From NCBI RefSeq assembly GCF_013280595.1, contig NZ_JAAATY010000047.1, positions 1 to 62,142 of the forward strand: 62,142 bases of DNA. The letters are read 5' to 3'. Made by a program: the position numbers and the translations under genes. The DNA is from Kibdelosporangium persicum (GTDB taxonomy: Bacteria > Actinomycetota > Actinomycetes > Mycobacteriales > Pseudonocardiaceae). Position 1 is the stretch's first letter, and the number at the start of each line of letters is the position of its first letter. The notes beneath the pieces were generated by a model. That model ran no database searches and was not told where the DNA came from. It was given only the letters and a program-made list of their open reading frames with translations. This document shows positions 43,142 to 47,726 of the stretch, piece by piece.

Positions 43142-43191
43142 TGTCGCACCCCGCGATGGGCAAGACAATCGGCCGTTGTGACGGGTGGGTG

Positions 43192-43207
43192 AGTGGTCTA
43201 TACCTGA
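43192..43207. promoter_or_regulatory. DasR-responsive element-like site before the GH20 gene
   Basis: AGTGGTCTATACCTGA matches the recalled dre consensus AGTGGTCTAGACCACT at 12 of 16 positions, including the whole left half. It lies 38 bp upstream of the hexosaminidase start and 50 bp from the divergent lipoprotein start. GlcNAc-regulon control fits a hexosaminidase. Confidence 0.55.
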
Positions 43208-43245
43208 ATTGTCGCCGCCTGCTGGAGTTACGTTCGGGAGGGCCC

Positions 43246-44820
43246 GTGCACGTACGTCGATTCCTCACGGTCATGGCGGTGACGACCGCCACTGCCGCCA
43301 CATTCTCGGCACCCACGACCGCAGCGCAGGCGGGCAAGAGCCTCACCAGTGTCATCCCGGCGCCCGCGGAGGCGTGGCCCGATGCACGTCAGGCATTCCG
43401 GCTGAACTGGGGCACCGTCATCTTCACCGAGGCCGGCTCGCGCGAGGCCATGGCGGTCGGCAGGCAGCTGGCCGACGTCCTGCGGCCGTCCACCGGATAT
43501 CCGCTGCCGGTGCTGCCCGCGCTGGCCCGTGGGCACGGCATCTCCCTGCTGCTCGGCGGCGCTGACGCCCGCGTCGGCCAGGAGGGCTACCAGCTGGCGG
43601 TCGAACGCGACCAGATCGTCATCCGGGCCAACACCCCGGCGGGCCTGTACGCGGGCACGCAGACGCTGCGCCAGCTGCTGCCCGCGCAGGTCGAGAGCAA
43701 GACCCGGCACCAGGGACCCTGGGTGGTGCCCGGCGGCAGGATCGTCGACTACCCCCGGTTCGCCCACCGCGGCGCGATGCTGGACGTGGCCCGGCACTTC
43801 TTCGGCGTCGACGAGGTCAAGCGCTACATCGACCAGATCGCCCAGTACAAGATCAACCGGCTGCACCTGCACCTGTCCGACGACCAGGGCTGGCGCATCG
43901 AGATCCCCGGCTGGCCGCGGCTGACCAGCCACGGCGGCAGCACCGAGGTCGGCGGCGGGCCCGGCGGCTTCTACACCCGCAGCCAGTACCTCGAATTGGT
44001 CGCGTACGCGAAGGCCAGGTACATCACGGTCATCCCGGAGATCGACATGCCGGGGCACACCAACGCGGCGCTCGCCTCGTACGCCGAGCTGAACTGCAAC
44101 GGCATCGCGCCGCCGTTGTACACCGGCACCAGCGTGGGTTTCAGCTCGCTGTGCATCGACAAGGAGATCACGTACAAGTTCGTCGAGGACGTCATCCGTG
44201 AACTGGCCGCGCTCACGCCGGGCGAGTACATCCACATCGGCGGCGACGAGACGCACGCGACCAAGCCCGCCGACTACGTGAAGTTCATGCAGCGGGTGAC
44301 TCCGATCGTGGCCAAGTACGGCAAGAAGGCCGCCGGCTGGCACGAGATCGCCAAGACGCAGTCGGACCCGTCGGTGCTCCCGCAGTACTGGGGCACGGAC
44401 GACGTCGACGAGGAGGTCGTCGCCGCGACCCAGCGCGGCAGCAAGGTTCTGCTCTCCCCCGCTCACAAGTCCTATTTGGACATGAAGTACGACCGGAGCA
44501 CCCCGCTCGGCCTGACCTGGGCCGGACTGATCGAGGTGGACACCGCGTACGGCTGGAATCCTGGTTCGTTCATCAGGAACGTGCCCGAGTCGAGTGTGCT
44601 GGGCGTCGAGGCACCGCTGTGGTCGGAGACCCTGGAGAACAGCGACCACATCGAGTTCATGGCGTTCCCGAGGCTTCCGGCGATCGCCGAACTGGGCTGG
44701 TCGCCGTGGTCGACGCACGACTGGGCGTCGTTCAGCCGGCGCCTGGCCCTGCAGGGTGACCGGTGGGTCCACCAGGGCGTGAACTTCTACCGCTCCCCCA
44801 CAATCGCCTGGACCAGCTAA
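43246..44820 (+). CDS. Exported beta-N-acetylhexosaminidase (GH20)
   Basis: 524 residues from GTG 43246, chosen for GGGAGG upstream and the signal peptide that follows (RRFLTVMAVTTATAATFSAPTTAAQA). The GH20b N-domain (SVIPAPAEAWPDARQAFRL) precedes the catalytic barrel: HRGAMLDVARHFFGVDEVKRYID, RLHLHLSDDQGWRIEIPGWP, VIPEIDMPGHTNAAL, and the catalytic pair D334-E335 in HIGGDETH. It removes terminal GlcNAc/GalNAc from chitin or muropeptide oligomers outside the cell. A DasR-like site in the promoter suggests induction by GlcNAc-derived signals. It ends just before recurrent hairpin copy 3. Confidence 0.93.
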   Translation: MHVRRFLTVMAVTTATAATFSAPTTAAQAGKSLTSVIPAPAEAWPDARQAFRLNWGTVIFTEAGSREAMAVGRQLADVLRPSTGYPLPVLPALARGHGISLLLGGADARVGQEGYQLAVERDQIVIRANTPAGLYAGTQTLRQLLPAQVESKTRHQGPWVVPGGRIVDYPRFAHRGAMLDVARHFFGVDEVKRYIDQIAQYKINRLHLHLSDDQGWRIEIPGWPRLTSHGGSTEVGGGPGGFYTRSQYLELVAYAKARYITVIPEIDMPGHTNAALASYAELNCNGIAPPLYTGTSVGFSSLCIDKEITYKFVEDVIRELAALTPGEYIHIGGDETHATKPADYVKFMQRVTPIVAKYGKKAAGWHEIAKTQSDPSVLPQYWGTDDVDEEVVAATQRGSKVLLSPAHKSYLDMKYDRSTPLGLTWAGLIEVDTAYGWNPGSFIRNVPESSVLGVEAPLWSETLENSDHIEFMAFPRLPAIAELGWSPWSTHDWASFSRRLALQGDRWVHQGVNFYRSPTIAWTS

Positions 44821-44826
44821 AACCCC

Positions 44827-44872
44827 CTCGTGAGTGGTTATCGGGGTTAGAACCCGGATAACCACTCACGAG
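44827..44872. terminator. Recurrent palindromic hairpin, copy 3
   Basis: Arms CTCGTGAGTGGTTATC (44827-44842) and complement (44857-44872), with an inner GGGTT/AACCC stem. Relative to copies 1 and 2, one base pair has changed on both arms (T-A to G-C), preserving pairing. The right arm overlaps the stop codon of the converging aldehyde dehydrogenase-like gene (44866-44868). Confidence 0.85.
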
Positions 44873-46173
44873 TAGTTGACCAGGAGGCGCTTCTCGCGCC
44901 AGTAGCCGGCGAGCAGGCTGTTGCGGTTCTCCCGGCCGAAGGCCGCTTCCGCGGGGTGTACGCGGTCGCTGTTGACCCACACCCTGGTCGCGTGGATCGC
45001 CCGGCCGGCACGGTATCCGGCGCCGGTGTCCCGCGCCCAGACCGAGACGCCGGAACTCTGCGGGATGTCGTTGACGAGCTTCACCGCGTCGTCGAAGTCG
45101 CTGAAGCCGGCCACCGAGATCACCGGCGCACCCGCCAGAGCGTGGTTCCTGTCGCCCTCGATCACGGTCGGCTCAAGGAAGAAGCCCTCGGTCAGTTCGC
45201 CGCTCAGCGAGGCCTGGCCGCCGCCCGCCAGGACCCGTCCGCCCGCGCGTACGGCGTTGTCGATGTGCCACAAGGCTTTCACCCATTCGTCCGCGCTGGC
45301 CATCGCGCCGACGGTGGTGCCGGTGTCGAGTGGGTGGCCGGTGACGAGTTCCCCGACGCGCCCCAACGCCGCGTCAAGGAATCGCTCGTACCGGCCGTGC
45401 TGGACGAAGGCCGCCGACGTCCCGGTCGCGAAACCCTCGACCGCCCGGTCGTGCAACGTCCCTTCGAGATCGGCGAAGAACACCGCCGGTCCCAGGCCGA
45501 TCGGCGGCGTCCCCGGGAAACCGTTGACCACATTGATCACACCGGGCGGCACGAGGTCGTTGATCACGCTCAGCAGCACGTGCACCGACGCCGGTGTCTG
45601 CATCGCCGGCTTGAGCACCACGGTGTTGCCGGCCGCGAGCGCGGGCGCGAGGTGCCACGCCGCGCCCAGCAACGGGAAGTCCCAGCCCAGCGAGCGCTCG
45701 ATGACCCCGATCGGCTCACGGAACCCGTGCACCACGATGTCACCGTCGATCTCGGACCGGACACCCTCCTTGGCCCGGATCGCACCGGCGAAGTACCGGA
45801 AATGATCCGAGGCCAACGGCACGTCCGCGCCCAGCGTCTGCCGGATCGGCTTTCCCGTGTCCCAGCTCTCGGCCACCGCGAGCGCTTCGAGGTTGTCCTC
45901 GATCCGGTCGGCTATCTCGCTGAGGATGACGGCCCGTTCGGCCAGCGCCGTCTTGGACCAGCCCGCCGCACCCCTGGCCTCGTCACCCGCCCGCCGCAGG
46001 TCGTCGGCGGTCCCTTCGGCGATCTCGGTGAAGACCTGACCGGTGACGGGCGTCGGGTTGTGGTAGTACGTGCCGCCCGCGGGCGGCACGTACTCGCCGC
46101 CGATGAAGTGGTCGTAGCGGTCGGCGAATTGCACCTCGCTGCCCGGTTGTCCTGGTGCGGCGTATCTACTCAT
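44866..46173 (-). CDS. Aldehyde dehydrogenase-fold pseudoenzyme (no catalytic residues)
   Basis: 435 residues from ATG 46173, against ~500 for the AldB/ExaC-type dehydrogenases it clearly resembles (YVPPAGGTYYHNPTPVTGQVFTEI, AESWDTGKPIRQTL, FRYFAGAIRAKEG, LAPALAAGNTVVLKPA). The usual catalytic Asn motif (PWNFP) reads GWDFPLL (D165). About 40 residues, including the G-x-x-x-G cofactor segment and the LELGGK catalytic Glu, are deleted near residues 221-229. The catalytic-Cys motif is replaced (FATGTSAAFVQHG), and the protein has no cysteine at all. The EEIFGP block reads ALAGAPVIS, and FGGYKxSGxGRE is cut to FGRENRNS. The ORF is intact with normal codon use, so selection for a non-catalytic role is likely. 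It is divergent from the GAF regulator. Confidence 0.88.
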   Translation of the reverse strand: MSRYAAPGQPGSEVQFADRYDHFIGGEYVPPAGGTYYHNPTPVTGQVFTEIAEGTADDLRRAGDEARGAAGWSKTALAERAVILSEIADRIEDNLEALAVAESWDTGKPIRQTLGADVPLASDHFRYFAGAIRAKEGVRSEIDGDIVVHGFREPIGVIERSLGWDFPLLGAAWHLAPALAAGNTVVLKPAMQTPASVHVLLSVINDLVPPGVINVVNGFPGTPPIGLGPAVFFADLEGTLHDRAVEGFATGTSAAFVQHGRYERFLDAALGRVGELVTGHPLDTGTTVGAMASADEWVKALWHIDNAVRAGGRVLAGGGQASLSGELTEGFFLEPTVIEGDRNHALAGAPVISVAGFSDFDDAVKLVNDIPQSSGVSVWARDTGAGYRAGRAIHATRVWVNSDRVHPAEAAFGRENRNSLLAGYWREKRLLVNYS

Positions 46174-46256
46174 GCTCCACGCCTCTCCGGCATGCTTTCA
46201 TGGGTACAAGTGGCGGACGGTAGAAGACACTGGGTTGCAGTGACGTTGCACAGTGC

Positions 46257-46274
46257 GTTCCAAGGGCGTGGAAC
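46257..46274. promoter_or_regulatory. Palindrome between the pseudoenzyme and the GAF regulator
   Basis: GTTCCA (46257-46262) and TGGAAC (46269-46274) flank 6 bp, immediately before the regulator start. A direct repeat of TTGCAnnG-type sequence (46234-46255) precedes it. The 104-bp divergent promoter region is short, so a site here could control both genes. Confidence 0.4.
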
Positions 46275-46277
46275 AAG

Positions 46278-47726
46278 ATGAACGACGCGAGCGCGTACGC
46301 ATTCCTGGTCAGCCAGTTGCGGCACGGGCTGCCCGACGGGCGCCCGGCAGGTGAGCCGCGGGCGCTGGTCTCCGCATCGTGGCAGCGTTCGTTGGCCGCG
46401 TGCATCGATCCGGAGCACGGCCTGCCGGACGTTGTCTATCCCGAAAACGACATTCCCGACCTGCGCGCGGACCATCCGCTGGCGCCGGTGATGCCCTCCT
46501 TGCGGGCGATGCTGGTGAGCATCGCCGACGAGGCCAAGCACATCATGCTGATCACCGACGCCGCCGGGCACGTGCTCTGGCGGGAAGGCAACGCGTCCGT
46601 TCGCAGACTCGCGGACAAGGTGCTGCTGACCGAAGGCACCCGCTGGACGGAGGACTCCATCGGCACGAACGCGATGGGCACCGCGCTGGCGGTCGACGGC
46701 CCGGTGATGATCCACGCGGAAGAGCACCTGGTCCGCCGCTACCACCCCTGGACCTGCGCGGCGGCCCCGGTGCACGATCCGGACACCGGCGTGGTGCTCG
46801 GCGTCATCGACGTCACCGGTCCACTGTCGACGATGCACCCGTCGACGCTCGCCCTGGTCTCCGCGGCGGCGCAGCTGGCCGAAGGCCAGTTGCGGACAAG
46901 GATGAACCTGCACGACGAACGGTTCAGGCAGCGCTACATGCGCCACCTGGCCGGACTGCGCGGCGAGCCCGGCGCGCTGGTCACCGCGACCGGCCGGGTG
47001 GTCGCCACGGAGTCCTGCGACTGTCTGCCGTCCAGAGTGGACGTCACGGCCGAGCAGGGCAGGTTGTGGCTGCCGGACGGCCGCGAGGCGTGCATCGAAC
47101 CGCTCGCCGAGGGATACCTGCTGCGCGTCGCCCCTGGCCGGATACACCGCCGCCGCCAGTTGCTGACGATGCCGTTCCTCGGCGTCGAGGATCCCCGCGC
47201 GCTGCTCGACGGCCAGGAGATCGCGCTCACCCTGCGGCACGCCGAGATCCTGACGCTACTCGCCCTGCACCCCAGAGGGATGACCGCGGAACAGCTCGCG
47301 CTGGAGCTGTACGGGGAATCCGGCAACCCGGTGACCGCACGCGCCGAGATCCATCGGTTGCGCACGCAACTGGGCGCGTCCGCGATCAGCACCAAGCCGT
47401 ACCGGTTGGAGACCGACGTCGACGCGGACTTCATCAGTATCCGCGAACCGTTGCGCGGACGCAGAGTCCGCGAGGCGGTGGCGTGGTGGCGCGGTCCGTT
47501 GCTGCCCCGGTCCAACGCGCCGGGCGTGCAGGTGGAACGGGAGCAGACGCTGAACCAGTTGCGCAGGCTCGTGCTGGAACGCCGTGACCTGGACGCGCTG
47601 TACTCGTTCGTGCGCGGGACGACGGACCAGGAAGCACTGGAAGTCCTGGTGCGAGGCCTGCCACCGGACGATTCACGTCAGACGTGGGTGCAGTCGCAGC
47701 TACGGCTGTGTATCACGGACGAATAA
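46278..47726 (+). CDS. GAF-domain transcriptional regulator with winged-helix C-terminus
   Basis: 482 residues from ATG 46278. The N-terminal part follows the AcoR/GAF activator pattern: ALVSASWQRSLAACIDPEHG, LRAMLVSIADEAKHIMLITDAAGHVLWREG, LTEGTRWTEDSIGTNAMGTALAVDGPVMIHAEEHLVRRYHPWTCAAAPVHDPDTGVVLGVIDVTG (GAF, residues ~70-200). There is no AAA+ sigma-54 domain. The C-terminal part (~325-410) is an OmpR/BTAD-like winged helix (LTLRHAEILTLLALHPRGMTAEQLALELYGE, ARAEIHRLRTQLGA). In actinobacteria such proteins control aldehyde or alcohol dehydrogenase genes. Here the divergent neighbour is the catalytically dead aldehyde dehydrogenase homologue, which may serve it as a sensor partner. Confidence 0.87.
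   Translation: MNDASAYAFLVSQLRHGLPDGRPAGEPRALVSASWQRSLAACIDPEHGLPDVVYPENDIPDLRADHPLAPVMPSLRAMLVSIADEAKHIMLITDAAGHVLWREGNASVRRLADKVLLTEGTRWTEDSIGTNAMGTALAVDGPVMIHAEEHLVRRYHPWTCAAAPVHDPDTGVVLGVIDVTGPLSTMHPSTLALVSAAAQLAEGQLRTRMNLHDERFRQRYMRHLAGLRGEPGALVTATGRVVATESCDCLPSRVDVTAEQGRLWLPDGREACIEPLAEGYLLRVAPGRIHRRRQLLTMPFLGVEDPRALLDGQEIALTLRHAEILTLLALHPRGMTAEQLALELYGESGNPVTARAEIHRLRTQLGASAISTKPYRLETDVDADFISIREPLRGRRVREAVAWWRGPLLPRSNAPGVQVEREQTLNQLRRLVLERRDLDALYSFVRGTTDQEALEVLVRGLPPDDSRQTWVQSQLRLCITDE

Follow-up and report, generated by a model that had tools for sequence, protein, structure and literature searches.

An ExaC-derived aldehyde dehydrogenase, apparently stripped of catalysis, is retained beside its divergent GAF regulator in Kibdelosporangium and related actinobacteria

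Introduction

The stretch of DNA analyzed here, hereafter the window, is the 62,142-nucleotide contig NZ_JAAATY010000047.1 of the actinobacterium Kibdelosporangium persicum. On its reverse strand, at 44866..46173, it encodes a 435-residue derivative of the aldehyde dehydrogenase (ALDH) ExaC, which starts with ATG, contains no cysteine and is missing its catalytic and NAD-loop segments. A transcriptional regulator with a GAF sensor domain is encoded divergently from it. This pseudo-ALDH is under purifying selection, which is looser than that on the intact enzyme and near the level of the regulator. Compared with relatives, this locus has lost the gene for a DUF779 protein, and the parts of ExaC that serve catalysis and NAD binding have been altered and excised in frame. 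What remains of the ALDH has been kept under constraint, together with the regulator and a direct repeat in their shared promoter. This pattern suggests a present-day role for the dead enzyme as a partner of the adjoining regulator. The explanation we favor, with about even confidence, is that it is a selected, non-catalytic derivative of ExaC, which would retain only a regulatory contact with its own GAF regulator.

Sequence and losses of the window protein

The pseudo-ALDH is readily recognized as a member of the ALDH superfamily (PF00171, 236.4 bits against a gathering cut-off of 23). The NCBIfam model for ExaC, NF050026, matches it in two stretches with an E-value of 2.5e-135, although with 452 bits it stays below the curated cut-off of 900; its best solved relatives in the PDB are the ExaC structures 9koi and 9fm9, and it is 55–58% identical to eight intact relatives (alignment A2, with 41 of the 79 loci of this study). 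A preliminary description, made from the letters of the window alone, had called it an intact open reading frame (ORF) homologous to ExaC, in which the catalytic Asn, Glu and Cys, the cofactor glycine segment and the EEIFGP block are altered or deleted, and the comparison with 33 intact ExaC sequences of 507 amino acids (aa) bears this out. In the window protein, IPWNFP reads LGWDFP, FQEEIFGPV has become HALAGAPV, NQGEVCTCPSR has shrunk to TGTSA, ELGGKSP is lost, and both FTGETTTGR, the NAD loop, and GGYKQSG are missing, such that neither the three catalytic residues nor the NAD glycine loop that characterize ExaC are left. In most of the eight Kibdelosporangium sequences, gaps stand in place of ExaC residues 225–263, 277–279, 293–302, 397–400, 470–477 and 501–507. 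The complete absence of cysteine, also pointed out in the preliminary description, is true of the window protein, but it is not the defining trait, since only four of the eight genus orthologs share it. With its motifs lost and its sequence constrained (see below), the protein agrees with the definition of a pseudoenzyme as an enzyme homolog without conserved catalytic motifs, as worded in an excerpt of a text on pseudoenzymes in general (PMC10211241), and the sequence comparison supports its assignment as a non-catalytic ALDH of ExaC descent.

Purifying selection

The constraint was quantified with codon models (GY+F3X4 in IQ-TREE). For the eight Kibdelosporangium pseudo-ALDHs, the ratio of nonsynonymous to synonymous substitution rates (dN/dS, omega) is 0.120, with 0.098 in the first and 0.131 in the second half of the gene, and the log-likelihood (lnL) drops by 477 units, from -6171.1 to -6648.1, at an omega of 1. 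The altered copies of two further genera, g8 and g22, yield 0.065 (23 of 24 rows, locus L141 being excluded) and 0.135 (7 of 12 rows); here, an omega of 1 costs 1303 and 271 lnL units, respectively. Intact ExaC is held more tightly, with 0.025 for seven second copies in g8 and 0.039 for 6 of the 10 intact g22 rows, and the regulator shows values of 0.102 in Kibdelosporangium, 0.059 in g8 (23 rows) and 0.101 in g22 (7 rows). The dN/dS analysis proposed in the preliminary description thus indicates purifying selection in all three genera.

Altered copies in related genera

Orthologs were collected by searching 60 relatives, by a profile search of 390 genomes of the family and by further searches genus by genus. 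The rows examined represent 79 loci (prefix L, with G for genomes), 46 of them altered, with frames taken from stop to stop. A full-span ortholog (68–83%) is found in all seven other Kibdelosporangium genomes examined, which places the pseudo-ALDH at the same locus in eight of eight genomes of the genus; the search of the 60 relatives also returned more distant orthologs in G014 and G039. In genus g8, all 24 genomes possess a short-span copy of 1314 bp (1326 bp in G284), and 23 of them carry an additional full-span ExaC of 1500 bp elsewhere, intact in all seven that were read. In genus g22, 22 of 25 genomes have a copy; 10 of these copies are intact, with 507 aa, and the other 12 carry changes at one or several catalytic positions. 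Finally, another family, f5, contributes two altered copies, L076 in G039 and L164 in G414, the latter a poorly aligning sequence from a genome that is 74% complete. The orthologs anticipated in the preliminary description, with similar losses and the same neighbor, therefore occur in three genera, where purifying selection acts on them, and so the losses are not an isolated decay in one strain. A chance ORF is likewise ruled out by codon constraint and orthologs, and a sequencing error by the agreement of eight genomes.

None of the 46 altered rows retains Asn, Glu, Cys and the NAD loop together. The degree of loss rises by steps from L120 (505 aa; Asn motif kept, Cys replaced, NAD loop degraded) to the eight Kibdelosporangium rows, where everything is lost. 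Only L141, which keeps Asn and Cys and has lost the NAD loop and Glu, and the fast-diverging L156, which keeps a Cys, do not share the loss of Cys seen in every other altered row. The substitutions in the active site differ by lineage, with Asn changed to D, T/A, H/R or others, and Cys deleted or changed to S, A, T, P or G. The deleted ExaC residues are nearly the same across the three genera, namely 225–263 in Kibdelosporangium, and 224–258 plus 261–263 in g8 and in seven g22 rows. Residues 1–140 have kept 84–94% of the ExaC-invariant positions in Kibdelosporangium, g8, L141 and a g22 clade of nine (74–80% in L076 and L156). In the arm hairpin region, as judged from the alignment, fewer of these positions survive than in this N-terminal part, with fractions of 0.65 in Kibdelosporangium and 0.50 in g8. 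No stop codon was found inside the matches of altered copies in the searches of Kibdelosporangium, g8, g22 and f5. By contrast, the ExaC gene of G318 (genus g5, C48:24510-26029) is split over two frames with a stop, an example of ordinary decay.

A second ExaC was not seen in the eight Kibdelosporangium genomes, where no other match above 42% identity was among the matches listed, nor in G284; other ALDHs do exist in these eight genomes.

DUF779 and the number of inactivations

The ancestral gene order, found in relatives at loci such as L083, L087 and L121, consists of the regulator gene and, divergent from it, ExaC and DUF779, followed by a convergent gene that resembles a beta-N-acetylhexosaminidase, as judged by eye only. 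This last gene, at 43156..44820 on the forward strand of the window (start uncertain), serves in relatives as a landmark of the ancestral ExaC locus. The altered ALDHs of Kibdelosporangium, g8 and g22 occupy the ExaC slot of this gene order, without DUF779. The DUF779 family (PF05610) is absent from all eight Kibdelosporangium genomes, whereas 23 of 24 g8 genomes encode it next to the second ExaC. In g22, it occurs only in G028, G115, G125 and G137, all with an intact ExaC, and is absent from the 12 genomes with an altered and from six with an intact ExaC. Because these six intact and all 12 altered g22 genomes are without it, the loss of DUF779 seems to precede the loss of ExaC catalysis. The second, intact ExaC of g8 (L078, L143-L148) has DUF779 downstream and its own, shorter divergent regulator homolog of 375–393 aa.

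On the ALDH tree, the approximately unbiased (AU) test rejects neither a single clade that unites the 46 altered rows (p 0.299), nor a clade of altered g22 and Kibdelosporangium rows (p 0.557; the tree constrained to this clade is 2.85 lnL units better), nor one of altered g22 rows alone (p 0.432), and the placement of the f5 rows beside Kibdelosporangium may reflect long-branch attraction. As the ALDH tree alone does not decide, the origins were counted on a tree of the regulator, built with a quick method without bootstrap from 57 of the 79 rows, including 11 of the 24 g8 rows and excluding the second-copy g8 and the f5 rows. It sets apart Kibdelosporangium and g8, each with a value of 100 in the Shimodaira–Hasegawa-like approximate likelihood ratio test (SH-aLRT), and interleaves altered and intact g22 loci, where well-supported branches force at least two changes. 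If the intact state is ancestral and altered copies never revert, this tree implies at least four inactivations. In the f5 rows, L076 and L164, a regulator homolog and the altered ExaC gene share one strand, possibly as a result of a separate origin.

The divergent regulator

The regulator (482 aa; 46278..47726, forward strand) is separated from the pseudo-ALDH by a divergent promoter region of 104 bp (46174..46277). The preliminary description had correctly identified this arrangement and the GAF domain, which Pfam finds in 16 of 16 rows at E 0.001 and which spans aa 93–203 (46554..46886, forward strand) in the window. Its designation as AcoR-like did not hold. AcoR regulators carry an AAA+ sigma-54 domain and a Fis helix; no AAA+ or Fis domain was found by Pfam in the 16 rows. 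Instead, aa 312–368 (47211..47381, forward strand) resemble an OmpR-type winged helix at 20.1 bits, below the Pfam cut-off of 26.2; Trans_reg_C is reported in 2 of the 16 rows at E 0.001, and the C-terminal part matches OmpR-type winged helices in the PDB (E 6.7e-4). The sensor half is related to the sensor region of DhaR, both by NF008485 (E 2.7e-18, under its cut-off) and by PDB 4lrx (E 7.7e-8).

The regulator gene is divergent from the ALDH gene at 8 of 8 Kibdelosporangium, 24 of 24 g8 and 22 of 22 g22 loci, and in the three g22 genomes without ExaC (G118, G129, G133) it was not found at E 1e-90. In the family survey, where genomes count as lacking an ExaC-like match if E is above 1e-100, only 2 of 101 such genomes outside g5 (G072 and G392) hold the regulator at E 1e-140 or better, as sorted by eye. 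The evolutionary distances of ALDH and regulator correlate with 0.86, and with 0.75 as a partial correlation given the hexosaminidase-like gene (55 of 79 loci; none of 500 permutations as high), compared with a partial correlation of -0.07 between the ALDH and the hexosaminidase-like gene given the regulator, all of these correlations being inflated by shared ancestry. At L125 (G120), the regulator beside an intact ExaC has an open frame of only 329 aa and a lower score than its relatives; it is perhaps truncated or frame-shifted.

The promoter repeat

The promoter region contains the direct repeat TGCAAC-N5-TGCAAC (46234..46250, reverse strand), which has a period of 11 bp and is a putative operator of the divergent regulator. 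The exact repeat is present in the gap at all 44 altered loci of the three genera (8 in Kibdelosporangium, 24 in g8 and 12 in g22), at 9 of 10 intact g22 loci and, among 16 further intact loci, at 13 of the 14 whose divergent gap is shorter than 600 bp (two were set aside for longer gaps). When the Kibdelosporangium gaps were shuffled by mononucleotides, 1 of 160,000 sequences contained it. Since most intact ExaC genes are also preceded by it, the repeat predates the loss of catalysis. The preliminary description had instead stressed a palindrome; this near-palindrome, GCACtGTGC, is missing from most of the other seven Kibdelosporangium gaps, so it is the direct repeat, present in all eight, that is conserved. 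None of the seven second-copy ExaC loci in g8 (L078, L143-L148), where the intergenic sequence differs, has the exact repeat.

Across whole genomes, the exact repeat is found as a single copy, always in this promoter, in G000, G001, G002, G004, G005 and G007, and in two and three copies in G003 and G006, respectively. Scans that allow for one mismatch returned fewer matches than a reversed control pattern in five of five genomes.

Discussion

The proposed mechanism assumes that the intact ExaC of these bacteria already touched the GAF domain of its own regulator, much as dihydroxyacetone kinase does with DhaR, and that in the altered lineages only this contact would have remained under selection. 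The pseudo-ALDH would then act as a co-regulatory protein within a small feedback loop: the regulator would bind the tandem TGCAAC sites of the shared promoter via its winged helix, and the pseudo-ALDH would switch or tune it, perhaps with a ligand in the remnant of its pocket. Binding of an aldehyde or another ligand is possible. The preliminary description had thought of a ligand- or NAD-sensing partner, of which the ligand or partner role remains the best reading; sensing of NAD is unlikely, because neither the window protein nor the other Kibdelosporangium rows, g8 or the seven most reduced g22 rows have retained the NAD loop, and we have dropped the NAD sensor on these grounds. In a more general form, the proposal describes a recurrent route, by which an NAD-dependent enzyme lost its cofactor site and its catalysis on four or more occasions, all at one locus and in related actinobacterial lineages, and was kept with its own transcription factor and operator to become a two-protein sensor. 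We regard this general form as tentative, with a probability somewhat short of even.

Several observations weigh against a regulatory partnership. The likeness to the DhaR sensor covers one domain and would not imply the same mode of partnering. The repeat also occurs at intact ExaC loci and might be retained only because the regulator controls its own gene; G039 does not have the exact repeat anywhere in its genome, and in the eight Kibdelosporangium genomes, the reversed control pattern is as frequent as the repeat, with 0–2 copies per genome, so that stray copies are expected at that rate and the single copy in most genomes is a weak point on its own. The two altered f5 copies do not have the divergent layout. 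ExaC and regulator are also not strictly bound to each other, as 22 of 26 g5 genomes without ExaC keep a regulator homolog at E 1e-140, which points to other uses of this regulator family in g5, and as genomes such as G079, G023, G024, G035 and G008 contain an ExaC-like match but no regulator at E 1e-90. Lastly, within Kibdelosporangium, the pseudo-ALDH is less constrained than the neighboring hexosaminidase-like gene (0.120 versus 0.066).

The most serious alternative, although on balance an unlikely one, is that the pseudo-ALDH is merely the output of the regulator, a non-catalytic binder or scavenger of aldehydes or other small molecules that does not touch it. The well-kept residues 1–140 and the retention of regulator and repeat are compatible with this, as is the role as a binding protein proposed for ALDH16 (PMC8160307, in excerpt). 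A covalent aldehyde trap, however, would want the Cys that nearly all altered rows have lost, and a binding protein does not by itself predict the correlation between ALDH and regulator or their joint loss, though co-regulation could. Improbable by comparison is a role as a hetero-oligomer partner that modulates active ALDHs, which the preliminary description had likewise considered. Parts of the oligomerization regions are still alignable, other ALDHs exist in Kibdelosporangium and nearly all g8 genomes hold a full-span ExaC; but a general role in pairing with ExaC is ruled out, as the matches listed for Kibdelosporangium do not include a second ExaC, and neither was one seen in G284. Moreover, the arm hairpin is kept worse than the N-terminal part, and the retention beside the regulator would be left unexplained. 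Slightly more doubtful still is a new catalytic activity at another active site: constraint is strong, but no common new site is visible, as the lineages replaced the active-site residues differently. An open but decaying pseudogene is very improbable, as omega is far below 1 in all three altered sets with lnL gaps of 477, 1303 and 271, the matches are free of stops and true decay, as in G318, looks different, even if omega is looser than in intact ExaC (0.065–0.135 versus 0.025–0.039) and some copies, such as L156, diverge fast.

With the NAD-dependent acetaldehyde dehydrogenase ExaC/AldB (NF050026; PDB 9koi), the window protein shares descent, locus, regulator and repeat, but not the catalytic Asn, Glu and Cys, the NAD loop, EEIFGP, GGYKQSG or an adjoining DUF779 gene. 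Trigger enzymes such as PutA are metabolic enzymes that regulate their own genes; PutA keeps its catalysis and binds DNA itself, whereas here, catalysis is gone and DNA binding would reside in a separate protein. ALDH16A1, a vertebrate ALDH pseudoenzyme, also does not have the catalytic Cys and is thought to be a binding protein, according to an excerpt of PMC8160307. Unlike ALDH16, which is long and has a large extra ALDH-like domain at its C-terminus, the window protein has a single ALDH part of 435 aa, is shorter than ExaC, separately derived and bacterial, and is encoded beside a regulator. For the proposed contact between enzyme and regulator, the closest precedent by analogy would be DhaR. 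Escherichia coli dhaR is described as divergent from dhaKLM and its product as a sigma-54 enhancer protein of the TyrR family (PMC8743547), which is reported to be controlled through the binding of dihydroxyacetone kinase (Bachler 2005, cited in PMC6643234). The sensor regions are related in sequence and both regulator genes are divergent from an enzyme gene, but DhaR is a sigma-54 enhancer protein rather than one with an OmpR-type winged helix, the enzyme families differ and the contact proposed here is inferred.

No bacterial ALDH pseudoenzyme of this kind was among the matches listed in the open-licence literature. If the recurrent route is correct, the ordinary ExaC of these actinobacteria would be a hidden co-regulator of its own promoter. 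One enzyme seems to be caught here in the repeated loss of catalysis, since a single locus holds intact copies in some living relatives and half-stripped or fully stripped ones in others. As regulator and repeat are retained along this series, it becomes testable whether metabolic enzymes have a regulatory contact that is under selection and persists after catalysis is lost. The comparison also draws a link between the loss of DUF779 and that of ExaC catalysis.

OmpR-type helices bind tandem 11-bp repeats, and so the OmpR-type helix of the regulator fits the 11-bp direct repeat. TGCAAC-N5-TGCAAC and the regulator are likely to be the regulator–operator pair for ExaC in this family. In five Kibdelosporangium genomes (L195-L199, at about position 2000 in each), the site TTGGTACAGACCAA, which we take to be DasR-like, is directly followed by a copy of the TGCAAC repeat, with one mismatch in four of the genomes and exact in G006, and precedes an operon that by eye encodes a sugar ABC transporter. 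This operon is a possible second target of the regulator.

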